From: Kiloniella litopenaei | GTDB taxonomy: Bacteria > Pseudomonadota > Alphaproteobacteria > Kiloniellales > Kiloniellaceae | Length of the DNA: 64,000 nucleotides | Assembly (NCBI RefSeq): GCF_000982415.1 | Contig: NZ_LANI01000002.1 | Span: 62,001-126,000, forward strand | Direction: 5' to 3' | In this document: piece after piece, positions 12,737 through 45,487 of the stretch | Position numbering within the stretch: the first letter of the stretch is position 1 | How the letters are laid out: each line of letters opens with the position of its first letter | The notes under the pieces: model-generated | Seen by the model: the letters and a program-made list of their open reading frames with translations, nothing else | The model's database searches: none | Told to the model about the DNA's origin: nothing | Position numbers and translations under genes: made by a program

Positions 12737-13270
12737 TCAGTCCTTAAAGTCAGAAACCCCGGCCCCAATATCAATAAAATCACGACGGACAATTGTTATA
12801 TTTTCCAAACGGGCATTATCGGGAAAATGTTCTTCCCCCAGAGGTTTTATCTCATTGCTTTGACACAGAACAATTGGGTTTGGGCTCATGTCATTTTCCA
12901 GTGGCAGCATGAACACTTCCAAAAACATTTTGCGACCCGTCGACATACCGTGATTTGAAACCACCCGCATACCGCAAGGCTGCTGAACAACAGAGAAAAA
13001 AGACTGGCTTGCCTTTTCCTTGCGTTCATCCGCCACATAATTCAGATAATTTTCCCCAGTTGGATCAAACCCCATGCGTTCTCGTACCGCCGTGCCTGCA
13101 AGTCGAAAGCGGATAAAATCCTTGGCCACCATCTCGTAGATAATAAGGCTGGGAAGTATTTGCGGCACTTTTTCCGGAAAAAAAGCGCTTCGTAGCGGCA
13201 GAACCCCCTCACGTGGAAGGCTCAACCAATGATCAAACAAAGCCTGGCTTCTGGGGTGATAAAGCTCAAT
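12737..13270 (-). CDS. PAS_5-type single PAS-domain protein, apparent ATT start
   Basis: About 177 residues. The block DHWLSLPREGVLPLRSAFFPEKVPQILPS and LIIYEMVAKDFIRFRLAGTAV match the alphaproteobacterial PAS_5 family, as does NYLNYVADERK. Homology to the paralogs at 26575, 27465 and 30403 clearly begins upstream of the first standard start (TTG at 13240): HPRSQAL aligns with HSKSQAF. The codon that aligns with the paralogs' initiator Met is ATT at 13268-13270, with GGAG 11 nt upstream. So either ATT is used, or the gene starts late and lacks its first residues. Sensory or adaptor role unknown; no output domain. Confidence 0.8.
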   Translation of the reverse strand: MELYHPRSQALFDHWLSLPREGVLPLRSAFFPEKVPQILPSLIIYEMVAKDFIRFRLAGTAVRERMGFDPTGENYLNYVADERKEKASQSFFSVVQQPCGMRVVSNHGMSTGRKMFLEVFMLPLENDMSPNPIVLCQSNEIKPLGEEHFPDNARLENITIVRRDFIDIGAGVSDFKD

Positions 13271-16850: not shown

Positions 16851-17381
16851 ATGTTTTTATCCGCACAATCGGATCTGACAGAACTGGAAAAATACCCCAG
16901 ACTGCGACAAAGTTGGCAATGGTATTCTGATCTTTGCGCAAAGTTGGGGCGGATTCCCGCGCGGCAAGATATCAACCCGGCTGATATTAAATTTGCGTTG
17001 GGGTACGAATTACTTGTCGAAATTAACCGCGAGAGCAAAAATCCGCGGGTGCGTCTGATCGGCGTTGTTACCGAAGAGTTCTTCAAACTGGCCAACGGTC
17101 GTCATGCGGGCAAAGACTATGACACCTTTCTGACCGAAGAAAGCCAAATAGCTGCGTCTGAAAAACTTACGGAATCCTTGGACCAGGGACAGCCTATTTT
17201 TGGCACAGCAACCTATACCCGCAAAGATGGACGCCGCTTCGGCTACGTCAGAATAATTTTTCCCCTTCAGTCACAAAATGACGAGCCGGAAATGGTCTTC
17301 CTCATTTTTCAGGACTTTACCGAAAACGAAGACCGCGAAATCGGCGCTCAAAAGGAAGAGGCTATGAAACGCTGGTCTTAA
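16851..17381 (+). CDS. PAS_5-type protein, tandem copy 1
   Basis: A 176-residue protein made essentially of one PAS fold: SAQSDLTELEKYPRLRQSW, then DINPADIKFALGYELLVEI, NPRVRLIGVV, and a C-terminal sheet GRRFGYVRIIFPL. No output domain, signal peptide or membrane segment. It is the first of three same-strand paralogs repeated with a period near 647 bp, and the most diverged in its upstream region. The family is typical of Rhodospirillales-type bacteria. Its biochemical role is not known; ligand-binding adaptor is the usual guess. Confidence 0.85.
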   Translation: MFLSAQSDLTELEKYPRLRQSWQWYSDLCAKLGRIPARQDINPADIKFALGYELLVEINRESKNPRVRLIGVVTEEFFKLANGRHAGKDYDTFLTEESQIAASEKLTESLDQGQPIFGTATYTRKDGRRFGYVRIIFPLQSQNDEPEMVFLIFQDFTENEDREIGAQKEEAMKRWS

Positions 17382-17496
17382 GTTAATCAATAAAAATACG
17401 CAATTATTTGATAATGAGCCGCTTGGCTATATCCTGTTTAGGATTGATGTAATATTCTGATACCTGTTTATAATAATCACACCGTGGTGGCACGAC

Positions 17497-18024
17497 ATGT
17501 TCATTTCCGCCCAATCGGATTTATCAGTACTCGAGGAATATCCCCGCCTGCTGCAAAGCTGGCATTGGTATTCCGGGCTTTGTGAAAAGCTTGGTCGATT
17601 ACCATCCAGAAAAGATATTAACCCGGTTGATATCAAATTTGCGCTGGGCTACGAAATGCTGATCGAAACGGATCGCGAACACATGAATCCCAGGGTAAGG
17701 CTAATCGGCACAGTTACCGAAGAATTCACAGGCCTCCCGCATAGCGCAACCGGCAAGACCTACGACGCCTTTCTGTCAGAAGAAAGCCGCATAAAGGCCT
17801 GTAATTATCTTATAACTGCCCTTGATCGGGGACAGCCGCTTTTTGGCATCGCAAAGTATGCGCGAACAAATGGACAGACCTTTAGTTTCGCAAGAATAAT
17901 ATATCCGCTCTACACCCTGGAAAACGAGCCTGAAATGACTTTTGCCGTTCTTGAAAAGTTTAAAGAAAATGACAACAGGGAAGCTGGCGCTCAAAAGGAA
18001 GAATCCATGAAGCGCTGGCTTTAA
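17497..18024 (+). CDS. PAS_5-type protein, tandem copy 2
   Basis: A 175-residue paralog of the copy at 16851, sharing SAQSDLxxLE, YPRLLQSWHWYSGL, DINPxDIKFALGYEML, NPRVRLIG and the C-terminal GAQKEExMKRW. It carries substitutions in the ligand-pocket half (ICP-type changes around LPHSATGKTYDAF and FGIAKYARTNGQTF), suggesting a different ligand or relaxed constraint. Its 60-bp leader is nearly identical to that of copy 3, so each copy seems to have its own promoter and ribosome site. Function unknown. Confidence 0.85.
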   Translation: MFISAQSDLSVLEEYPRLLQSWHWYSGLCEKLGRLPSRKDINPVDIKFALGYEMLIETDREHMNPRVRLIGTVTEEFTGLPHSATGKTYDAFLSEESRIKACNYLITALDRGQPLFGIAKYARTNGQTFSFARIIYPLYTLENEPEMTFAVLEKFKENDNREAGAQKEESMKRWL

Positions 18025-18144
18025 CCTCTTGGTAAAACGCACACAATAAATTCTTTCCGAATGAACAGTTTGGTCATATTCTGTTTAGGATTTATGTCAT
18101 ATCCTGATACCTGTTTATAAATAACGACACCGTGGTGACACGAC

Positions 18145-18672
18145 ATGTTCATTTCCGCACAATCGGATTTGTCAGAACTGGAACAATACCCCCGCTTGCT
18201 CAAAAGCTGGCACTGGTATTCCGGACTTAGTGAAAAGCTGGGCCACCTTCCGACCCGTCAGGACATTAACCCTGCCGATATCAAGTTTGCGCTGGGGTAT
18301 GAAATGCTGGTCGAAAACGACCGCGAGAACAAGAATCCACGCGTACGTCTGGTCGGGATCGTTGCCGAAGAATTTATGGACCTGCCTGTCAGTGGTACAG
18401 GTAAAACCTATGACACCTTTCTCGATGACCAAAGCAGAATTAACGCCTGTGAACAGGTAACATTGGCACTGGATAAGGGACAGCCCCTATTCGGAACAAT
18501 GACCTGCACCCGCAAGGATGGACGCTCTTTTGGTTATGCACGCATTATCTGTCCGCTTCAAAAGCTGAACAATGAACCGGAAATGGTTTTTATCACCTTT
18601 CAGTCATTTATCGAAAACGAAGGCCCCCAATCAGGCGCACAAAAAGAAGAAGCTGTGAAACGCTGGTTATAG
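18145..18672 (+). CDS. PAS_5-type protein, tandem copy 3
   Basis: A 175-residue paralog, closest to copy 2 at its start (MFISAQSDLSELEQYPRLLKSWHWYSGL) and to copy 1 in the TRKDGRxFGYxRI strand. The mixed pattern would fit either different rates of change or gene conversion among copies. The C-terminal SGAQKEEAVKRWL is shared by all three. No output domain. As with its neighbours, only a sensory or scaffolding role can be guessed. Confidence 0.85.
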   Translation: MFISAQSDLSELEQYPRLLKSWHWYSGLSEKLGHLPTRQDINPADIKFALGYEMLVENDRENKNPRVRLVGIVAEEFMDLPVSGTGKTYDTFLDDQSRINACEQVTLALDKGQPLFGTMTCTRKDGRSFGYARIICPLQKLNNEPEMVFITFQSFIENEGPQSGAQKEEAVKRWL

Positions 18673-33929: not shown

Positions 33930-34071
33930 ACGCACAGGTTTATGAAAAATTAATATTATTTTCCTATGGTTATTGTCGTGGATGCCACCCCAAAAAATAT
34001 CCACTCAGAACGCTGTCGATTACGTATCAATTTTCAGGAACGATCGTGCCCCACATGGCAGAGGATGTGAT

Positions 34072-35607
34072 ATGCTTGGTCTCTCAAAAAAGAATACCCC
34101 CACCGATTATCAGCCGAAAAACTGTAAATTCAACAAGGCAGAAATGAACCTGATCCTATCTGCTTTAAATCGATCCCAAGCAGTCATTCAATTTGAACCT
34201 GATGGCACGATCATCACTGCCAATAAAAATTTTCTGGCGGCTATGGGATATACGCTGGAAGAAATCAAGGGCAAGCATCACAGCATGTTTGTCGAAGAAG
34301 AATACAAGAACTCCCAAGAATATCGGGATTTTTGGAAAAATCTTGGAAAAGGAGAATTCCAGTCCGCCGAATACAAACGTCTTGGAAAAGGTGGTAAGGA
34401 AATATGGATACAGGCATCCTATAACCCCATGATGAACGCATCGGGAAAAGTCGTAAAGGTTGTTAAATATGCAACAGACATAACGGCACAGACCATACAA
34501 AATGCTGATTATCAAGGTCAGATAGATGCAATTGGCAAATCGCAAGCCGTCATATCCTTTCATCTTGATGGCACTATTATCGACGCAAATCAGAATTTCC
34601 TCGACGCTGTAGGATATAAACTTGATGAAATTCAGGGGCAACATCACAGCATATTTGTCGAACCCGAATACAAAGAATCAAAAGAATATGCTGATTTTTG
34701 GAACAGGTTACGGAATGGCGAATTCCAAACCGCTGAATACAAACGTTTCGGCAAAGGCGGAAAAGAAATATGGATACAAGCAACCTACAACCCGATTTTT
34801 GCCCCCGATGGGAAACCCTTTAAAGTTGTCAAGTTTGCCACTGATATCACCCAGCAGGTAATCAACCGGGAAAAAGCAACAAAGGTTAGTGAAATTGTTG
34901 ATGAAAACCTGGGAAACATTCTGCAAACTGTTGTTGCTGTGAATAATCAATCCTCTTCAGCTGCTCAGGCATCAAATGAAACATTGCAGATGGTTGAATC
35001 AATCGCTTCGGCATCCGAAGAATTCCAAGCTTCAGTTGCGGAAATCGCCCGAAGCATGACAGCTTCGCAAGATGATGTCAGAAAAGCCATAGAAGAAGCC
35101 CATATAGCAGATGATCTGACCAACAAATTGACCGAGCAAGCCCTGTCAATGGATAGCGTTGTCAGCGTTATTCAGGATGTTGCCGGGCAAATCAATCTAC
35201 TTGCCCTAAATGCAACGATTGAATCTGCACGGGCCGGAGAAGCCGGAAAAGGCTTCGCAGTTGTGGCATCAGAAGTCAAAGCACTCGCAAACCAGGTTGG
35301 AAGCGCGACAGAAAAAATATCCTCAGAGATTAGCAGCATGCAATCAATTTGCAGCAGCGTCGTAGAAAATTTAACCAGTATCAGAGGCGCCGTTGAATCC
35401 GTCGAAGGAAGTGTTACCTCAGTATCAGGGGCGATAGAGGAACAAACTGCTGCATCAGGTGAAATATCAGCAAACATTCAAACCGCAGCAACCGCTGTGA
35501 ATTCAGTAAATAACAATCTGGACAGTATCAGTAGCGCGGTTCAAACCGTCGAAAATAATGTCTCTGCAGTATCCACAGCCATCGCGGAACAATCAGCATC
35601 AATTTAA
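34072..35607 (+). CDS. PAS-PAS methyl-accepting chemotaxis protein, soluble
   Basis: About 511 residues. There are two PAS domains (about 30-135 and 150-260) with near-identical cores: [21 protein letters not shown] and [21 protein letters not shown], and FxxVxKYATDIT at each end. The MCP signaling domain follows, with hairpin tip [40 protein letters not shown]. There is no membrane helix, so it is cytosolic. I chose the ATG at 34072 because AGAGGA is in place and MLGLSKK matches the sister gene. It resembles BdlA-like energy or oxygen sensors. Confidence 0.92.
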
Positions 35608-35970
35608 CGGATGACGGCACCGAAACTGACTGATTTCTTGCCTGAATACCCGACAAATTAACGATGCACGACCAAAGGAAGAACGGGAACAATGGCCACA
35701 AGTCTCTGACTTTAGAGACCAGATCATGCTGCTATAAAAATGTCATTGGACAAATAAATTCAACGACTGATTTAAGCTAAGAAAATGACTAAACTCTTGG
35801 GGAAAATATGAAATTTCCAAGCAAAGATTCAATAAAATTTAACCTTTGATGATTACCAATCAACGGGCCGAACAACCTGGTCAAAGATATCTTCTCCCAT
35901 TGATATTTTTGACCATTAAATGACTGCTCTCTGAGATGACATTGCAGAGAGTTTGAAAGGATTTATGCGT
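35608..35970. other. 363-bp gap between the two receptor genes
   Basis: No gene is seen. The second receptor has its own AAGGA ribosome site and probably its own promoter, given the length of the gap. Confidence 0.5.
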
Positions 35971-37509
35971 ATGTTCTCGTTTGGTAAAAACGCCCGATTA
36001 ACAGCGGACCAACCAAAAAGCTATAAACTAAACAAGATTGAAATGACGTTGATTTTGAATGCCCTGAATAAATCGCAGGCAGTCATTCAATTCGAAGTCG
36101 ATGGCACTATTATCACTGCAAACCGCAATTTTCTGGCCGCTATGGGCTATTCGCTCGACGAAATAAAGGGCAAGCATCACAGTCTTTTTGTCGAGACGGC
36201 TTATAAAAACTCTGCTGAATACAAACAGTTTTGGGCGAGCTTGCAAAAGGGAGAATTTCAATCTGCCGAGTACAAACGGATCACTAAAAGCGGCAAACCC
36301 ATCTGGATACAGGCATCATACAACCCGATAATTGATTCCTCGGGCAAGGTTACAAAGGTCATCAAATACGCAACCGATATCACTCAACAGACATTGCAAA
36401 ATGCTGATTTCATAGGCCAGATTAAAGCCGTAAACAAATCACAGGCGGTTATTTCCTTTCATCTGGACGGCACCATCATTGATGCCAACGAGAATTTCCT
36501 TAAAACGGTGGGTTATGATCTGCACGAAATTCAGGGTCAGCACCACCGAATGTTTGTAGAGGAAGAATATAAAAACTCCCATGAATATGAACAGTTCTGG
36601 GCCTCTTTAAAACGTGGGGAATTCCAATCCGCCGAATACAAACGTATTGGCAAAGGTGGCAAGGAAATCTGGATACAGGCGACCTATAACCCGATTTTTG
36701 ACCCGGATGGCAATCCCTTCAAGGTTGTGAAGTTTGCCACAGACATCACCCAACAGATTACCGATCGGCAAGAAGCAGCCAGGGTAGGTCAGCTTGTTGA
36801 TGATAATCTGGGAAAAATACTTGAAGCAGTCGGTAACGCCAATAACCAATCATCCGCTGCCAGTTCTGCCTCTACGAATACCTTACAAACCGTTCAATCC
36901 GTAGCATCTGCATCCGAAGAGTTTCAGGCATCTGCCAGCGAAATCGCCCGCAGCATGAACACATCACGCAATGATGTGAAAAAGGCAATTGACGAGGCAA
37001 CAAATGCGGATCAGCTGACGCAAAAACTGACTGAGCAAGCTCTGTCCATGAACAGCGTGGTAAGTGCTATTCAAGACATTGCCGGGCAAATCAATCTACT
37101 TGCCCTGAACGCTACCATTGAATCTGCCCGCGCAGGTGAAGCAGGCAAGGGTTTTGCCGTTGTCGCATCCGAAGTGAAAGCACTGGCCAATCAGGTTGGC
37201 ACCGCCACCGAACAGATTTCATCCGAAATCATTGGCATGCAATCTGTCTGTGATAACGTTGTTGAAAACCTTAACAGCATCAAAGATGCCGTAGAATCAG
37301 TCGAGGGCAGTGTCACCGCCGTATCCGGCGCTGTTGAACAGCAAACATCTGCATCCAGCGAGATTGCCGCCAGTATGCAATCCGCCGCAACAGAGGTCAG
37401 CGAAATCACCGACAACCTGGCGTCAATCACCAATGCCGTTGATAATGCCCATAACTTTGCCCGCGAAGGCACCGACCTATACCGAAGCCTGAATAAACAG
37501 GCACTTTAA
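35971..37509 (+). CDS. PAS-PAS methyl-accepting chemotaxis protein, sister copy
   Basis: About 512 residues, the same architecture as the gene at 34072: two PAS domains and the MCP tip [35 protein letters not shown]. It differs at the end, where it continues with a further helix ([17 protein letters not shown]) lacking in the sister. No membrane segment. I chose the ATG at 35971, with AGGA 9 nt upstream, over the TTG at 35953 and ATG at 35965. Its closest companion is the upstream gene, so this is a tandem duplication. Confidence 0.92.
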
Positions 37510-37601: not shown

Positions 37602-39707
37602 CTAACAGCCATAAAGACCGTCTTTCGGAAAACGCCCGGCACCCTGTCGATCAGGGTCAAGGGGCGCAAAATATCCTTTCGCCTGTCTGAGGGCCTCAAT
37701 TGCTGTTGCCTGAGCCAAAAGCTCATCAACCGGACTTGTTGCAATACTGGCCTTATAGGCAGCTGCAACAGCACGGGTAATGGTCGGCGCAGCAACAGAA
37801 GTTCCATCCAATGTGACTGAGACACCGGATTTGACGCCCGATGCCCGCACCCCCCTGAAAACAGGACTGCGATCGCTTTCCGCAGAAACCAAAGGCGTCT
37901 TCGCCTGTTCAGGCAAAGCTGTCTCTGTTGTCTGATATCCGCTATAAATCGCGGCACGCCCGGTTGCTTCGACATGGCTTGCAACAACAATCGGTGTTGT
38001 ACCTGTTGCCAGACCATTGGATGATCCATCCCGCTTTACGATGGAATGGTTATCGTGCACCTGTAGCTTCCCTTGATGATCATAAAGCTCATAGGCCCTG
38101 TCATCAAAATAGGACTGCCGCCCCAAAGCTGGATAGCCAAAAGGCGATGCGTCGCGCTGGATACGGGCATGGATAGGTTCAGATAATGCCTTGTCTGATT
38201 TTTTGATAACCCGAACGGTCCACAAACCATTGGCAACGGGTTTCAAAGGACCGGGATGAAGCGCTGTATCTGCCCGTACATCTGGCACCTCTGTTGGCGC
38301 AAGAACCAGCATAAAACGACCACGCGCATCCTCTTCTGACAAAGGTGTATGCTTGTCATAGGACAACCGTGCGATGGCCTTTGCCCCCCGGGTCAGAACA
38401 ACCGCGCTATTCACAACCGCTGTTAGCTTTTGTGCGGGAATTGCCTCTGTTGTTGGCGGGATGACCTCGATCTCAATATCCCCGTCATCATACCCAGCCT
38501 TTGGCATCCATATTTCAAGATAGCTGGACGTTCTGTCATTGGGTTGCACCCGCCACGGCAGATCGCAATACCCCTTATCTGTATCGGCGCAATTATCAGC
38601 CTTAAAATCGTCATCTGTTATTACCGCATGGGATCGTTCCAGATGATGATTTCCCGAGGGCAACACCACGGACGTCGGTGCAACACGGTCATTTCTGGCG
38701 GTGACAATTTCATCAATCGCCTTTTCCAGCAACGATGTGCCATCATGTGGCCCGCCAAAAATGCCATAGCTGAAATTAATCACCACGGGCAGGTTCGGCG
38801 CGATACGATCAGCCCGATCAAGGATATAGTGCACCCCGGCCAGAATAAAACTGTCCAGCCCCATGCCAGACGTGTCCCAGGTCACAGCGGCTGGCACCTG
38901 TACCGTGATGATGCGATCTTCTTCCAATTGACTGGATGACGTATTGTCATAATCAGCCCCGGCCGCCAGATCCAGCACATGCGTACCGTGTGCTGCTTTG
39001 CCATCCAGTGAGTTTGGCATCACCTTGCGGCTATCCACCAGCCCCAACGCCCGATAAAGCGCGGCCTCGTTTGTTGCGCCCAGTGCATCTGTGTATTGGG
39101 CAAGAGCACTGTCAATACCGGCCTTGGTATATTCACGGCCAAAAGCGACATTGGAACCAGAACCAGCCCCCAATTGGGCATCACCATCCTGCACCCATGC
39201 AAAATCAATCCGGGTGCTGCCGGGTGCTGACTGGAACCTGCGATTGGCAATGGCAATACCATCATCTATCACCCCCACCACAACCTTTGCAGGCGAAGAT
39301 GAAGCACAGGATGAATTCGCTGAGACTTGGGGAGTAGCCTCGGGCACATAGCTCTGGTTTACACTTGCCGCGCGCAGGGGAATACCAATCCGTCGTTTAA
39401 TCCCCGAGCTTTCGGTGTTAGAATGGTCAAAGCCAGAAGACCTCTCCCGACCAACAGTACTTTCCCGCAGAACAAAGGGGCGAAAGCTGGGCTGTTCCCC
39501 ATCTGGCCGATAAAGCACGGGATAAATGGCATCGGGATTTTCATCGCCTGCAACAAAATTTTCCGACGCTTCTGTTCCGCTATAACAATGCGTTTCATTC
39601 GGTGGACCAAAGGGAAAGCCATAGCCCGCCCCTGTATCCAGCAACCAGTCTTCATAGGGGTCAACGGCCTTGATGCCATCGTCCTGCCAGTGATAGGGAT
39701 CAGCCAT
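37602..39707 (-). CDS. Subtilisin-like S8 family serine peptidase
   Basis: About 701 residues. The catalytic triad is readable: Asp about 148 (VVGVIDDGI), His about 240 (AAHGTHVLDLAAG) and Ser about 637 (LDGTSVAAPTITRA), with the oxyanion Asn in VINFSYGIFGG. There is no signal peptide; residues 1-140 are a proline-rich head with several Ser. A long insert (about 390-590) before the Ser contains beta-rich sequence. I chose the ATG at 39707 because GCAGGAGG lies 5 nt upstream; it overlaps the PAP2 gene stop. Substrate unknown. Confidence 0.92.
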   Translation of the reverse strand: MADPYHWQDDGIKAVDPYEDWLLDTGAGYGFPFGPPNETHCYSGTEASENFVAGDENPDAIYPVLYRPDGEQPSFRPFVLRESTVGRERSSGFDHSNTESSGIKRRIGIPLRAASVNQSYVPEATPQVSANSSCASSSPAKVVVGVIDDGIAIANRRFQSAPGSTRIDFAWVQDGDAQLGAGSGSNVAFGREYTKAGIDSALAQYTDALGATNEAALYRALGLVDSRKVMPNSLDGKAAHGTHVLDLAAGADYDNTSSSQLEEDRIITVQVPAAVTWDTSGMGLDSFILAGVHYILDRADRIAPNLPVVINFSYGIFGGPHDGTSLLEKAIDEIVTARNDRVAPTSVVLPSGNHHLERSHAVITDDDFKADNCADTDKGYCDLPWRVQPNDRTSSYLEIWMPKAGYDDGDIEIEVIPPTTEAIPAQKLTAVVNSAVVLTRGAKAIARLSYDKHTPLSEEDARGRFMLVLAPTEVPDVRADTALHPGPLKPVANGLWTVRVIKKSDKALSEPIHARIQRDASPFGYPALGRQSYFDDRAYELYDHQGKLQVHDNHSIVKRDGSSNGLATGTTPIVVASHVEATGRAAIYSGYQTTETALPEQAKTPLVSAESDRSPVFRGVRASGVKSGVSVTLDGTSVAAPTITRAVAAAYKASIATSPVDELLAQATAIEALRQAKGYFAPLDPDRQGAGRFPKDGLYGC

Positions 39708-40854
39708 TGTTGCCTCCTGCAGCAGGGGCTTCCTCCCACTCGCTTTTGGCCTTGAGCCACAACCAACGGAACAGGTTATCCGGCTCTCCATGAACCTCGG
39801 ACGTGCCCCACTTCACAACCGGATCACTATCCCCATCACCCAATGCAATGACAGATTTATCAAAATCGCCCGTGGCGTTGTTGCCGATAAATTCAACTGC
39901 ATCAATATCACCACTTTCCCCGCTGGCAAGCTGTAACAGATAATGCCCAAGCGTCGTCCCCAACGCCGCCCCGGCCGTACTGTCCGCGGGGAAATGCACC
40001 CCGGCAACAGTCCGGTTCACCGCAATACGTTCCGCAACAGAAAGCAATAATTCCTTGATCGAAGGACTTTGTTGAAACGACATAATCGTATCATCCAGCA
40101 AGGCCCCAAAGACGGTTGCAACCGTGAAAGCTTCGGTGGAATGACCGCTTGGCAAGGTCCCGTGCCCCGGTGTTGGAATAATCGGCTGTATCTGTGCCGA
40201 ATAGATATCCGGACGGCGACACGCCAAAGAGTGTTTGGTGCGAAGGACAACATGCGATGCAAGTTGTTGAACAAGGCTAATGAGTTGGAGTGTATGGCTA
40301 TGAGTAACAGCGTTCAAAGGCACAACTGAGGTAAAAAATTCTGTCGGATATCCAACCTGAGCCAAAATTTCAGCCGCGCGCTCGGATCGTTGATCTGCAT
40401 AGTTTCGTACATATTCTAACTGTGAACGAAATACCTCTTCACTTGGACGTGATAACTTGGCTAGCTTCGAATAGGAAGGATGCGGCGCATGATCCAACCC
40501 ACCGTGTGGATGATCATGCTGAAACCAGATTGAAACAGCCCCTTCATCAGCGTCCCCTTTAAAAGACAAGCGAGAGAGCAAGTCAGTTAAAATGGTTGAA
40601 GCCCGAACACGAGGAGACCATCGAGCAAGATTATCTGCCTGATCAGCAATAATATGAGGAGGTTCAACACCCGGTTCAGGTAAATTCCAAGGATCACGGA
40701 TAGCATCTGAAGATGTTAAATGTGCTGTTGTGTCAACTCCGCTGACCCCACTAACTCCACTAACTCCGCTGACCCCGCTAACTCCGCTGACCCCACTAAC
40801 TCCACTAACTCCACTGACTCCGCTAACTCCACTGACCCCAGAATTAATTGACAT
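39700..40854 (-). CDS. PAP2-type phosphatase (or haloperoxidase-fold) with SGV repeats
   Basis: About 384 residues. The three PAP2 motifs are present: KHSLACRRPD (about 192-201), PSGHS (about 222-226) and NRTVAGVHFPADS (about 277-289). Vanadium haloperoxidases share these motifs, so reaction chemistry is open. The first 40 residues are MSIN followed by about twelve SGV tripeptides, unlike any PAP2 tail I know. No signal peptide or membrane helix is seen, and the fold appears soluble. AAGGAAG 6 nt upstream supports the ATG at 40854. It overlaps the peptidase gene by 8 bp. Confidence 0.9.
   Translation of the reverse strand: MSINSGVSGVSGVSGVSGVSGVSGVSGVSGVSGVSGVSGVDTTAHLTSSDAIRDPWNLPEPGVEPPHIIADQADNLARWSPRVRASTILTDLLSRLSFKGDADEGAVSIWFQHDHPHGGLDHAPHPSYSKLAKLSRPSEEVFRSQLEYVRNYADQRSERAAEILAQVGYPTEFFTSVVPLNAVTHSHTLQLISLVQQLASHVVLRTKHSLACRRPDIYSAQIQPIIPTPGHGTLPSGHSTEAFTVATVFGALLDDTIMSFQQSPSIKELLLSVAERIAVNRTVAGVHFPADSTAGAALGTTLGHYLLQLASGESGDIDAVEFIGNNATGDFDKSVIALGDGDSDPVVKWGTSEVHGEPDNLFRWLWLKAKSEWEEAPAAGGNNG
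40741..40839 (-). repeat. 9-bp x11 in-frame tandem repeat encoding Gly-Val-Ser
   Basis: Eleven 9-bp units run without gap. Each reads GG(A/G)GT(T/C)AG(C/T) on the coding strand. The two dominant versions (GGAGTTAGT and GGGGTCAGC) differ at third positions only, so the tripeptide is maintained while the DNA is not identical. Confidence 0.9.
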
Positions 40855-40925
40855 AATAAACTTCCTTTCGCCGACTTTGTGGTCGCGTTTCACCACTAAT
40901 TTTCACTTATAAATTTGAACAGTAA

Positions 40926-42587
40926 TCACAGCTCAGGTACGCCTGATGCTTTAAGTGCCTTTGCCCATTCCTGCCCGGTACCAAAAGCAGCAGCTGGATG
41001 CTTTTTTAAATAACCAGAAATTGTCAGATGGGGTTCTAATTTCATTAATTCTGCCGCAGTACATTTTGCTTCTTTTTGCTGACCTAAAGAATGCTGTGCT
41101 ACAATTTTTGCTCTTAGTGTAGAAGTATGACTTTTGTTAGCTTTTAGCGATAACTCAGCTAAGCTAAGCGCTTCTTGATACTGTCCGTTTGACAATAAAG
41201 CGGTAGAATGAAGAGCATCAAAATAATATTTATAAGGATCCAGTGGCGATAAAGAACGCGCACGCTCTGTAAAAGAGACAGCCTTATCGCCTTCATCCAT
41301 AAAAGCATGTAGAGTTCCCTTGAGTAACCACGCCAAAGCATCATTTGGGTTAAGCTCAACAGCGCGATCAAAGCGGCTAAAAGCTGTATCAAATTGCTTT
41401 AAGAGATTATTCTGGACCAATCCGTCAACAGCTAGAGAAAACGAATTATCCGGGTCCAAATCCAGAGCTTTAGCGGTACAATCGCTTGCAATTTGACTAT
41501 CTTTTTTAAGATCGTTACTCCACCCCTGCTGGACGGACAACACATACCACTTTCCCAGCCAAGCGTAGAGAGACGCATGATTGGGTGATTTGCGGATAAT
41601 TTCTTCGATTAACGGTCTGGCTTTGGCAAAACTTGCAAGTTTTAACCTGTGCATCAAGGCAACACCGGAAACCAGCAATGCGTGGCTCGCCACTTCTGGT
41701 AGGGGTTTACTTGTCGCCAGTTCAATAGAGGTCGATAGAATGGACTGTCCAATCTGGCGGGAAATATCAGCAACAATTTCCTGCCCACCATTCAGAAAAT
41801 CTGACATCCGCGCAGAAAACTGACGCGACCAGATAATCCGCCCACTTTCCGCATCCAGAAAATCGGCATCCAGATGAAAGTGTTCCCCCGACAAACGGTA
41901 GCTGCCGTGGATAACATATTCCACATTCAACGCGCGCCGAACATCCGCCAGATTTAAAAGGCGCATGTTGAGATTACGACAGGATAGATGGGAAATAACG
42001 TCGATTAACTGTGATCTTGAAAGTGCACGTGAGACTTCCTCGGCCAGCATATCGCCCAGCACATTTTCACCGTCCCGCTTGAAACTTTGTAAAAAGGGAA
42101 GAACTGCAACAGCCGGCAAGATTCCTGTTTTATCCGATGGATTAAAAAATTCCAGTGTAGAACTTAGTTGAGGGCGGTTGCTTCGTTGTTCATTTACCCA
42201 CGAAGTAAAACCACCTTCGGCGATCTCTATACCCTCTAGAAATTCGCCTTCAGCTGGCGTGCCCACAAGCTCGACAACATTCTCATTAAGAGCAATATTG
42301 TCATGACAGACGTCAAACAGGGTTTCAAAGTCAGCACCAATAGCGCGTTTTAGATCACTCAGCCCCCGACGCAGGCTTGCCCGCCCCAACTCTGCGCCCG
42401 ACAAAGACCACAGCTTATCCTGTAACCAGGAACGGGTCCGCGTCATATCCGGCGCCATTGCCAACAGCGCAATCATTGCCCGCAATTTTGTACTGCGCAC
42501 ATTAAGCTTGGCACCATCAGACCATTCTGCGCTAAAGGTACCGTAAAGTCGCAGTTTAAGTGTTTTTTCTGCCGGGTTATTTTGCAT
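40926..42587 (-). CDS. SARP-like regulator with TolB-like and TPR domains
   Basis: A 553-residue protein. Residues 1-90 fit a winged-helix regulator of the SARP type (LRLYGTFSAEW, RSTKLRAMIALLAMAP, ASLRRGLSDLKRAIG). Residues 160-290 resemble the TolB/FlgO-like N-domain found in adenylate-cyclase-linked regulators (AVLPFLQSF, VEYVIHGSYRLSG). About 300-520 are TPR helices (FDRAVELNPNDALAWLLKGTL). It lies 71 bp upstream of the PAP2 gene on the same strand and likely controls or senses for this locus. No membrane helix. Confidence 0.85.
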   Translation of the reverse strand: MQNNPAEKTLKLRLYGTFSAEWSDGAKLNVRSTKLRAMIALLAMAPDMTRTRSWLQDKLWSLSGAELGRASLRRGLSDLKRAIGADFETLFDVCHDNIALNENVVELVGTPAEGEFLEGIEIAEGGFTSWVNEQRSNRPQLSSTLEFFNPSDKTGILPAVAVLPFLQSFKRDGENVLGDMLAEEVSRALSRSQLIDVISHLSCRNLNMRLLNLADVRRALNVEYVIHGSYRLSGEHFHLDADFLDAESGRIIWSRQFSARMSDFLNGGQEIVADISRQIGQSILSTSIELATSKPLPEVASHALLVSGVALMHRLKLASFAKARPLIEEIIRKSPNHASLYAWLGKWYVLSVQQGWSNDLKKDSQIASDCTAKALDLDPDNSFSLAVDGLVQNNLLKQFDTAFSRFDRAVELNPNDALAWLLKGTLHAFMDEGDKAVSFTERARSLSPLDPYKYYFDALHSTALLSNGQYQEALSLAELSLKANKSHTSTLRAKIVAQHSLGQQKEAKCTAAELMKLEPHLTISGYLKKHPAAAFGTGQEWAKALKASGVPEL

Positions 42588-43213: not shown

Positions 43214-44248
43214 CTAGCGTTCACGCCAGAAAGAATAGAGGCCGGTGGCAATCAACAGGCTACAGCCGATCAAGGTTGCGGCATCCGGTGGTTCGTTGAA
43301 GACAAAATAGCCAACCAACAGCGCCCAGACCATCACCGTATAGCGGAAGGGCGCAACAAAAGCGACCTCGCCCACGCGCATGGCCCGGATCAGGGTGATA
43401 TGAACCAGCATAATGAAAACAGCGGCCCCCATCAAAAGCCCGACGGTATCACCCGTGACCTCTTTCCATTCCATGGTCGGTAATAACAAGGCACACACCA
43501 GCGTCACAGAAACCATTGTCACAAAGGCCACGAATAAAGACGGCAGACCCGATGATATCTTACGCGTCGCCAGATCGCGCAAGGCAACAGACAACATTGA
43601 TGCCAGCGCCCATAGGGAATAAACGCTGAACCCGTCTGTTCCCGGCTGAACAATTATCAGGACGCCGACAAAGCCCAGTGCAATACCGCCATACCGCCGC
43701 CAGCCGACGGTTTCCCCCAAAAAGACCGCCGCCCCCAGTGTCACCACCAGCGGCAAAGCCTGAAGGATCGCCGTCACATTGGCTACGGGCATATTAAACA
43801 GGGCCATAAAGTAGCAAAGCGATGCGCCAATTTCACCAATCACGCGGATAATCAACACCTTGGCATCCTGCCCACTGAGCGAGACAAATAGTTCGTTGCG
43901 ATACCAGGCAAAGCCCCCCAGAACCAGTGCCGCACAACATCCACGAAGGAAAATCGCCTGAAAGAGGGTCAGATCAAAAGACACAAGCTTCATCAACGTC
44001 ACATTGCCAATAAAAGCTGCCATACCAAGTGACATTAACAAAGCCCCGCGCAAGTTTCCCTTTGCCCCGCGCTCACCATCATCGCTGGTTTCAGCTATCG
44101 CGGCATCAAGGGCCATTGTCTCGGCGACGCACTTCTTCCCGGTTATTGTTCCGGCTTTCTTTGCAAACGTGCCCTCATCACCCGATGTTCTTTGGTGGGC
44201 TTGATCTCTTTGGTTGGTTTGATCTGGTCCCTTGTTTGGCTCGGTCAA
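43214..44248 (-). CDS. EamA/DMT family transporter
   Basis: A 344-residue protein with ten predicted helices in two EamA halves; ALFNMPVANVTAILQALPLVVTLGAAVFLGETVGWRRY and APFRYTVMVWALLVGYFVFNEPPD are the family landmarks. The N-terminal 65 residues before the first helix are polar and carry a degenerate 18-bp duplication (44190-44225) coding QRDQAHQ-like sequence. The TTG at 44248 gives this tail; an ATG at 44116 would shorten it. It is a near copy of the neighbour at 44271. Cargo unknown (drug/metabolite). Confidence 0.88.
   Translation of the reverse strand: MTEPNKGPDQTNQRDQAHQRTSGDEGTFAKKAGTITGKKCVAETMALDAAIAETSDDGERGAKGNLRGALLMSLGMAAFIGNVTLMKLVSFDLTLFQAIFLRGCCAALVLGGFAWYRNELFVSLSGQDAKVLIIRVIGEIGASLCYFMALFNMPVANVTAILQALPLVVTLGAAVFLGETVGWRRYGGIALGFVGVLIIVQPGTDGFSVYSLWALASMLSVALRDLATRKISSGLPSLFVAFVTMVSVTLVCALLLPTMEWKEVTGDTVGLLMGAAVFIMLVHITLIRAMRVGEVAFVAPFRYTVMVWALLVGYFVFNEPPDAATLIGCSLLIATGLYSFWRER
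44190..44225 (-). repeat. 18-bp x2 in-frame tandem repeat in the EamA N-terminal tail
   Basis: ctttggtgggcttgatct (44190-44207) and ctttggttggtttgatct (44208-44225) differ at three bases. The unit is six codons long. Confidence 0.75.
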
Positions 44249-44270
44249 TAAACTGTTCCCACCTGTACCT

Positions 44271-45311
44271 TTATCGATTGATCATTTCTTCGGCCTTTTC
44301 CAGATCTTTGATCTTTTCCGGCCAGATGGTTTCATCTGTTCCATCGTTTGACGAATTGATGGCATGCTCTTTTTCTGCCCGTTTTTTCAGCTTGTTTTCA
44401 CGATAGAAGGTATAAACACCCGTAATGACCAGAATAATACTGCCAACAATCGTCCAGAAATCAGGTATATCCCCAAAAACGACAATCCCGAGCAGGATAG
44501 CCCACAGCAAAATTGTATAGCGGAAAGGCGAAACAAAAGAGGTTTCCCCCCGTCGCATAGCCACAATCACACTAAGATACCCAACCATAACGAAACAGCC
44601 TGCACCGATCAGATATCCCACGGATATTAGCTGAACCGGTTGCCACCCAGATGTCGGCAGTAAAATCCCCGCCGTCAGGGTTAAAAAGACAGAGGTTAAC
44701 AAAGCGACGTAAATCGAGGGAACAGCATTAGAAACCTTTTTCGTCGCGAGATCCCGCAACACAATAAAGACAACCGCAGCCAAAGCCCAGAAAGAATAGG
44801 CGTTAAAGCCCTCTGCCCCCGGCCGGACAATAATCAGAACCCCGATAAAGCCCACAGCAATCGCCGAGTAACGTCGCCACCCCACAGCTTCGCCCAGAAA
44901 AAGCGCCGCACCCAAAGTAACGGCCAATGGCAAAGCCTGTAGAATAGCCGTCGAATTGGCAATCGGCATATTAAACAAAGCCGTCAGATAACAAAGCGTG
45001 GCCCCGACTTCGCCAAAAATGCGAAAGGCCAGTATTTTTCTATCGGCCACAGAAACGGTGCGAAACAATGCCTTTGTACGCCAGGCAATCGCCCCCAAAA
45101 ACAGTGTCGTGAAAATGCCACGTAGAAAAATTGTCTGAAACAAAGACAGATCGGCAGAGGCCAATTTCATCAAGGCATCATTGAAAACAAACGCCGCCTG
45201 GCTCAACACCATAAAGGCTGCCCCCTTAAAGTTCTCACGCGGATCAACCGCCGAGCCTTCGACCTGCGCAGACGCACCACTGTTCCCAGAAATATCACTC
45301 TTTGGGGTCAT
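44271..45311 (-). CDS. EamA/DMT family transporter, tandem paralog
   Basis: A 346-residue protein; the helical body is close to the transporter at 43214, with ALFNMPIANSTAILQALPLAVTLGAALFLGEAVGWRRY almost the same. The C-terminal tail after the last helix is basic (KLKKRAEKEHAIN) and longer than its neighbour's. I chose the ATG at 45311, as AGG lies at a proper distance. It lies 22 bp upstream of the neighbour's start, so the two form one operon. Possibly a heteromer, which is inference. Confidence 0.9.
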   Translation of the reverse strand: MTPKSDISGNSGASAQVEGSAVDPRENFKGAAFMVLSQAAFVFNDALMKLASADLSLFQTIFLRGIFTTLFLGAIAWRTKALFRTVSVADRKILAFRIFGEVGATLCYLTALFNMPIANSTAILQALPLAVTLGAALFLGEAVGWRRYSAIAVGFIGVLIIVRPGAEGFNAYSFWALAAVVFIVLRDLATKKVSNAVPSIYVALLTSVFLTLTAGILLPTSGWQPVQLISVGYLIGAGCFVMVGYLSVIVAMRRGETSFVSPFRYTILLWAILLGIVVFGDIPDFWTIVGSIILVITGVYTFYRENKLKKRAEKEHAINSSNDGTDETIWPEKIKDLEKAEEMINR

Positions 45312-45487
45312 TGACCTGTTCCAGTTTTGATAAGCATCCAACCATAGAGCAAGGTTTAGATTTTAATTGCAAGCAAGATTGTAGAAAATATTCATTTTAA
45401 CACAGAATAGAAATGTTATTGAAAGATCCATCCCAGATTTTCATATAAAAGTTTTCTCTCTAAGTCAGCGGCAGCAAAAGGCGTAAC

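Follow-up and report, generated by a model that had tools for sequence, protein, structure and literature searches.

A conserved trio of TPR regulator, repeat-tailed PAP2 enzyme and peptidase in which the tail and the TPR domain co-vary

What single process could bring together a regulator, an enzyme with a repetitive tail and a peptidase, and what would the tail be for? The question is raised by three minus-strand genes in a 64,000-nucleotide stretch of the Kiloniella litopenaei contig NZ_LANI01000002.1 (hereafter the window), which encode a regulator with tetratricopeptide repeats (TPRs), a PAP2 superfamily enzyme with an N-terminal tandem repeat and a peptidase of the S8 family (Table 1). 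A sequence-only reading of the window had proposed that the three serve one process, for example processing of the tail by the peptidase and a phosphatase or haloperoxidase controlled by it. We found that both the trio and the repeat tails of its enzyme are genuine and widespread, that selection acts on them at the level of the protein, and that the tail and the TPR domain of the regulator co-vary statistically; of the partners, the TPR domain changes most with the tail. Recognition of the tail by the TPR domain, combined with a proteolytic switch, is in our judgement the best explanation, at a probability of roughly one in two.

Relatives of the locus were collected with several searches. Among 98 relatives the S8 query matched 11 of the genomes, against 16 for the PAP2 query; the S8-matching genomes that gave no PAP2 match were G026, in which an S8 relative is present, and G006 (contig edge). 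With a tail-free PAP2 profile there were matches in 28 of the 385 class genomes (E ≤ 1e-10) and in 24 of the 398 phylum genomes (E ≤ 1e-18), and a second PAP2 profile matched 71 of 295 genomes of one family at E ≤ 1e-40, probably the Rhodobacteraceae of GTDB to judge from a Phaeobacter-like member locus. The first resulting table holds 74 loci and the second 80 regions with 81 PAP2 open reading frames (ORFs); these regions and five loci fetched earlier cover all 86 places found by the second profile. Three matches of the PAP2 query (G070, G017, G054), together with nine weak places from the class profile search, were left out.

A tail was present in 63 of the 74 loci of the first table, and each of these 63 had both partners, regulator and peptidase relative, within 3.5 kb. 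The second table contained 77 tailed ORFs out of 81, and the four untailed ones keep one or both partners (the repeat is imperfect in L254, L269 starts inside the enzyme, and the called start is doubtful in L214 and L266). Within the same 3.5 kb, the two tables together gave a TPR regulator and a peptidase in 137 of 140 tailed loci and a peptidase in 138, although many of these loci are near-duplicates (eight have the unit NSF, seven being Phaeobacter plasmids) and do not amount to 140 independent cases. Two of the exceptions to the full trio, L215 and L265, are truncated where their contigs end. The remaining one, L259 of genome G852, has a GQH tail and a divergent regulator without an S8 relative, though the sequence continues on both sides and further genes follow. 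Of the 11 untailed loci in the first table, one (L142) is degraded and ten are distant PAP2 homologues, among which no peptidase was found at E ≤ 1e-4. The ten are so far off in sequence that tail and relatedness are partly confounded; a looser cut gave a single weak S8-like match (4.5e-4) near the tail-less L131, and the tail-less L133 had a weak regulator match. That the trio takes part in one process is strongly supported by these counts, and the pattern named beforehand as contrary to it, tailed PAP2 genes standing mostly without peptidase or regulator, is not what the loci show. Degraded copies of the trio were seen in Parasedimentitalea marina (L142), with several frames disrupted, and in Phaeobacter inhibens M647 (L141), where the regulator is annotated in two pieces and the PAP2 and S8-like pieces are shortened.

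In the PAP2 protein of the window, the initial MSIN leads straight into a tail of twelve perfect copies of SGV. The codons of this tail depart from the majority codon 15 times synonymously and never non-synonymously, and across 44 tails from the loci collected first there were 527 synonymous and 15 non-synonymous departures, where random single changes would be non-synonymous 2.6 times more often. This count is biased, as the tails were recognised by their repetition in the protein; the codon diversity within perfect protein repeats is real despite that bias. With rotations merged, the 140 tails comprise 86 distinct units, such as SGV, TGL, AGT, GGV, NSF, NAE, NAD, DAR, TGN, GNQ, LQS and ENW. 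The period is 3 in 111 tails, 4 in 18, 2 in 9 and 5 in 2, with a median copy number of 8.3 (range 3 to 20.5); Gly occurs in 61 of the 86 units and Pro in only 3. NSF is the common unit of the Phaeobacter plasmids, at a copy number of 5 to 7. Wherever a genome had two tailed loci their units differed (18 of 18), which is weak evidence given so many units. The conserved feature is a homogeneous short-period protein repeat in which residue identity is free. The earlier description as an SGV tail was thus right about a tail at the PAP2 N-terminus but too narrow in its letters, SGV being one of 86 units and periodicity being what is conserved.

The regulator of the window had been described as a combination of SARP-type, TolB-like and TPR parts. 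Its TPR matches in Pfam are clear, an AF2 model predicts helix pairs over residues 338-548 with fair to good confidence (predicted local distance difference test score, pLDDT, 67-95 by block over 331-553; most of the remaining protein poor), and Foldseek matched the predicted repeats to consensus TPR superhelices and to the TPRs of O-GlcNAc transferase. The other parts fared less well in Pfam, which gave the window protein no SARP/BTAD match and only FlgO at E = 0.15; among its relatives, the L044 regulator matches BTAD (PF03704) and one is annotated as SARP.

Within Kiloniella it is the TPR part of the regulator that departs with the tail. The window and K. majae both carry SGV, and their regulators are 97-100% identical over segments of residues 361-553; pairs with different units are 46-89% identical by segment in this part. 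Against EL199, whose unit is TGL, the window regulator is 92-95% identical over segments of residues 1-360, falling to 79, 65 and 52% over 361-430, 431-490 and 491-553. Over the first 200 regulator residues and in all 7 S8 segments K. majae resembles EL199 more closely than it does the window; despite this its TPR domain and tail are of the window's type. Between K. majae and EL199 the synonymous (dS) and non-synonymous (dN) divergence rises from 0.29 and 0.010 in regulator residues 1-180 to 1.84 and 0.41 in 451-553, where dN between the window and K. majae is 0.006. Such a jump in the block of TPR domain and tail is what one would expect if the block were an allelic cassette, either exchanged or long-lived. 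Regulator paralogues were sought as a control for rate, and each of five Kiloniella genomes gave one match only.

A similar fall in identity from the middle of the regulator to its TPR end was seen outside Kiloniella (regulators of L127 and L141 left out) in pairs with different units, from 91 to 73 for TGV/AGV and from 65 to 42, 63 to 43 and 64 to 55 for TGN/AGN pairs. Same-unit pairs often showed no drop (NSF 97 to 96, NK 64 to 77, TGN 65 to 70). The statistics below on 121 representatives, on divergent and co-directional loci and on sister pairs used 132 regulators, leaving out L127, L141, L207, L263, L264 and regulators of 450 residues or fewer. In a permutation test of the excess identity of same-unit pairs beyond that predicted from the regulator middle, 50 representatives with 30 same-unit pairs gave +9.0 points for regulator residues 431-490 and +8.2 for 491-553 (each 0 of 5000 permutations), and +1.1 for the N-terminal domain (p = 0.27); 121 representatives gave +7.0 for 431-490 (0 of 3000). 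Divergently transcribed loci served as a control for linkage, since in them the 5' end of the regulator gene adjoins the tail and the TPR-coding part lies roughly at least 1 kb away. Here, with 13 same-unit pairs, residues 361-430 gave +6.3 (0 of 3000), whereas the value for the N-terminal domain was -4.1 and residues 1-140 showed no positive signal. With PAP2 identity as the control, z was 4.2-5.9 for regulator windows over 331-460 in divergent loci and 2.9-3.9 over 421-550 in co-directional ones. In a conservative test on 38 non-overlapping sister pairs (18 with the same unit, 20 with different units), whose support is moderate, the contrast of TPR minus PAP2 identity gave p = 0.010 overall and 0.014 in divergent loci.

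According to the explanation we favour, the adjacent regulator would use its TPR domain to read the repeat tail, which would thus be its ligand or a docking strip. Cutting by the peptidase, either of the tail or of the complex, would be the switch that alters the output of the regulator. This output may be transcription, or a cyclic nucleotide where, as in L042, a cyclase domain stands in place of the DNA-binding part. Any short unit would serve as long as all its copies are alike and the cognate TPR domain has followed its changes, and lineages would drift to private tail/receptor pairs that resemble those of pheromones and their receptors. We infer physical binding, cleavage and an effect on transcription or cyclic nucleotide. 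More tentatively, the module could embody a natural lock-and-key code, in which TPR regulators read short-peptide repeats at roughly one unit per helical repeat and private pairs are repeatedly re-invented; it would then belong to a class of protease-switched modules for self-recognition or signalling that has not been described before.

Several observations weigh against tail-TPR recognition. Some same-unit pairs do drop towards the TPR end (GGA 82 to 73, TGN 59 to 45). The same unit is also associated with higher identity in the post-tail PAP2 (+9.4), the PAP2 body (+5.9) and the whole S8 (+4.4, p = 0.001), and since PAP2 and S8 follow the unit as well, shared ancestry has not been fully removed. 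Block exchange alone could couple the TPR domain and the tail in co-directional loci because the two are adjacent there; in the divergent loci residues 431-490 and 491-553 gave +0.2 and -4.7, and non-TPR regulator windows (211-310) also reached z of 2.0-3.1. The sister-pair contrast with PAP2 gave p = 0.13 in co-directional loci alone, and that of TPR minus regulator middle p = 0.63. Finally, the variable TPR sites of Kiloniella are concentrated in helix B (32 of 52). By a motif rule from TPR design work, the groove positions are 2, 5, 9, 12 and 13; there was no enrichment of variable sites at these positions (7 of 20), and simple docking in the groove was rejected. The variable sites are scattered across the TPR surface and not gathered in the groove.

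The peptidase bears on both this explanation and the one first proposed. Its Asp/His/Ser triad was reported as intact, and the motifs IDDG (147), HGTH (240) and GTSVAAP (635) and a match to PF00082 of 28.9 bits (cut-off 21.8) bear this out. Across the tailed loci the peptidase is of class S8 in 130, A4/G1 in 6, C1 (papain-type) in 1 and C70/C39-like in 1. Pfam itself confirmed A4 in two loci, L042 (2.3e-25) and L105 (1.5e-28), and the remaining four were assigned by similarity to L042; the C1 match in L044 has an E-value of 2.2e-7, the C70/C39-like match in L108 is below the cut-off (0.005), and some S8 calls (L126, L127) were made from likeness to S8 neighbours, with no Pfam match. Since unrelated peptidases fill one slot, proteolysis appears to matter. 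In L045 (G008) the S8 match is split (query 1-652 and 656-700), suggesting a disrupted 3' end.

The process first proposed, taken here to mean that trimming of the tail by a peptidase specific to it activates or releases the PAP2 enzyme and that the regulator merely controls expression, draws on the near-constant peptidase of the tailed loci and its absence, at the stricter cut, from the tail-less ones, on the 8-bp PAP2/S8 overlap and on the weak association of the whole S8 with the unit. Processing of the tail may occur, with little that speaks for it specifically: no stretch of S8 clearly changed with the unit when S8 windows were compared with whole-S8 identity (highest z 2.9), the class of peptidase is replaced in some loci and the letters of the tail are free, and we regard trimming as the whole function as unlikely. 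Also unlikely is a structural role, in which a Gly/Asn-rich repeat, silk- or collagen-like, would serve assembly or solubility and the co-variation would reflect linkage and ancestry. The frequency of Gly, the drift of copy number from 5 to 7 among the Phaeobacter plasmids and the failed sister-pair contrast of TPR minus regulator middle agree with such a role; 25 of the 86 units lack Gly, and constant partners and the TPR signal in divergent loci would be left unexplained. Pheromone-like signalling, whereby the peptidase frees repeat fragments that are exported, re-imported and sensed by the TPR domain as lineage-specific pherotypes, would account for identical repeated units in 86 forms, for the co-variation and for the cassette-like exchange in Kiloniella. 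It is rather improbable for a tail whose units abut with no processing spacers, which is fused to an enzyme retaining its catalytic motifs and which in the window lacks a hydrophobic export signal.

The module is sometimes elaborated with further genes. An aKG-HExxH peptide beta-hydroxylase gene, accompanied by one for a ThiF adenylyltransferase, lies near the NK-tailed PAP2 and S8 genes in Rhizobium leguminosarum pRL23b5 (L146, 7217-9756), L129 and L159. In 9 of 140 tailed loci (L037, L115, L116, L202, L203, L212, L239, L262 and L263) a protein encoded within 3.5 kb resembles the animal-haem-peroxidase-like neighbour of L037; the L116 copy has no Pfam match of its own. A tail that is the substrate of peptide-modifying enzymes, as in ribosomally synthesised and post-translationally modified peptides, is suggested by the beta-hydroxylase and the adenylyltransferase that follows it in the Rhizobium-type (NK)n loci, but is very improbable with a relative of the HExxH protein in 3 of 140 tailed loci and none within 3.5 kb in the other 137, other modifying enzymes not having been searched for. 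No known anti-phage system was recognised (PADLOC matched 0 of 6 proteins at E ≤ 0.01), and a phage origin was rejected, the window PAP2 having no match among 50,697 phage records.

The PAP2 enzyme of the window matches PF01569 at 53 bits, above the cut-off, and its motifs K207-x6-RP, PSGH (at 235) and R281-x5-H-x3-D are intact, as had been claimed; K207, R214, P215, S236, H238, R281, H287 and D291 are invariant among 13 aligned PAP2 members. Its profile scores 73 bits with the acid phosphatase 7f17 and 42 bits with vanadium bromoperoxidases, and as judged from sequence the enzyme may be either a phosphatase or a haloperoxidase. In agreement with the view that neither enzyme has a visible signal peptide, PAP2 and S8 lack a strongly hydrophobic stretch in their first 60 residues (maximal mean Kyte-Doolittle value over 15 residues 1.0 and 0.25; no signal-peptide predictor was run). 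An AF2 model of PAP2 was discarded (mean pLDDT 39).

The arrangement of the genes is as first described, with one start shifted. The regulator and PAP2 genes are 71 bp apart, and the S8 ATG at 39707, preceded by AGGAGG, overlaps the PAP2 stop (39702-39700) by 8 bp; the longer S8 ORF from 39791 is merely mechanical. ATG 40854, which AAGGAAG precedes, seems a better PAP2 start than the GTG at 40896 of the listed ORF. Sigma-70-like sites (9 against a shuffle mean of 7.1) and terminator-like sites (9 against 6.9) were near chance. By eye, two tandem, alike genes for transporter-like membrane proteins lie directly upstream of the regulator (43214-45341), and two adjacent plus-strand genes for double-PAS chemoreceptor-like proteins are apparent copies of each other (33973-35607 and 35953-37509). 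Three alike tandem genes of about 175 aa each (16851-18672) and a looser group of genes of this size (at 12737, 26575, 27465 and 30403) were also noted by eye.

Table 1. Coordinates of the trio and its parts in the window
Feature	Position	Strand	Details
TPR regulator	40926-42587	minus	553 aa; putatively SARP/winged-helix-related N-terminal part, TolB-like middle, TPR solenoid ~338-548
Regulator residues 361-553, TPR segment varying with the tail unit	40929..41507	minus	Identity by segment, jump in dN
PAP2 superfamily enzyme, tripeptide repeat tail at N-terminus	39700-40854	minus	384 aa; PF01569, catalytic motifs
Tail, 12 x Ser-Gly-Val, PAP2 residues 5-40	40735-40842	minus	Tandem Repeats Finder periods 9 and 45
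S8 (subtilase) peptidase	37602-39707	minus	701 aa; PF00082, triad motifs

The module looks like an undescribed recognition system; no description of it was found in the literature searched, which comprised open-licence papers and does not establish absence from print. A feature selected for repetitiveness yet free in sequence, which changes with a receptor-like domain, is rare, and the module occurs in culturable Phaeobacter strains. The RRNPP, ComX-ComP and agr systems are pheromone-receptor pairs encoded by adjacent genes, in which a hypervariable ligand and a segment of the receptor change together and the flanks are more conserved. The trio resembles them in its adjacent genes and co-changing variable segments, and its regulator is a TPR protein by Pfam, AF2 and Foldseek, as is the cytoplasmic receptor of RRNPP. 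It differs in its candidate ligand, which is not a small propeptide with an export signal: the tandem repeat is carried by an enzyme of 384 aa with no hydrophobic N-terminus. With PAP2 acid phosphatases and vanadium haloperoxidases the enzyme shares its core motifs and differs in its repeat tail, non-hydrophobic N-terminus and fixed partners. The peptidase is an S8 protease like CspB and CspBA, with 4i0w as the closest solved structure by sequence (E 1.9e-7) and an E-value of 1.1e-10 with NCBIfam CspBA, at 39.8 bits against a cut-off of 1250; unlike them, it stands outside a germination context and is paired with a PAP2 enzyme. Collagen-like proteins also have Gly-containing triplets (Pfam Collagen 21.1 bits, below the cut-off of 27.2), but the units of the module contain little Pro, and the family lacks a Gly at every third residue throughout, 25 of 86 units having none. 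A precedent for the proposed recognition is that of designed helical-repeat proteins, which can bind tripeptide repeats one to one, a tripeptide spanning about one turn of polyproline II (PMC10115654). Both pair a tandem tripeptide repeat with a helical-repeat protein; in that account the binders are designed and their targets contain proline, whereas the module is natural, its binding is putative and Pro occurs in 3 of 86 units. Should tail and TPR domain pair physically, the module's 86 units would be natural cases of the repeat-peptide recognition that is now designed from scratch.

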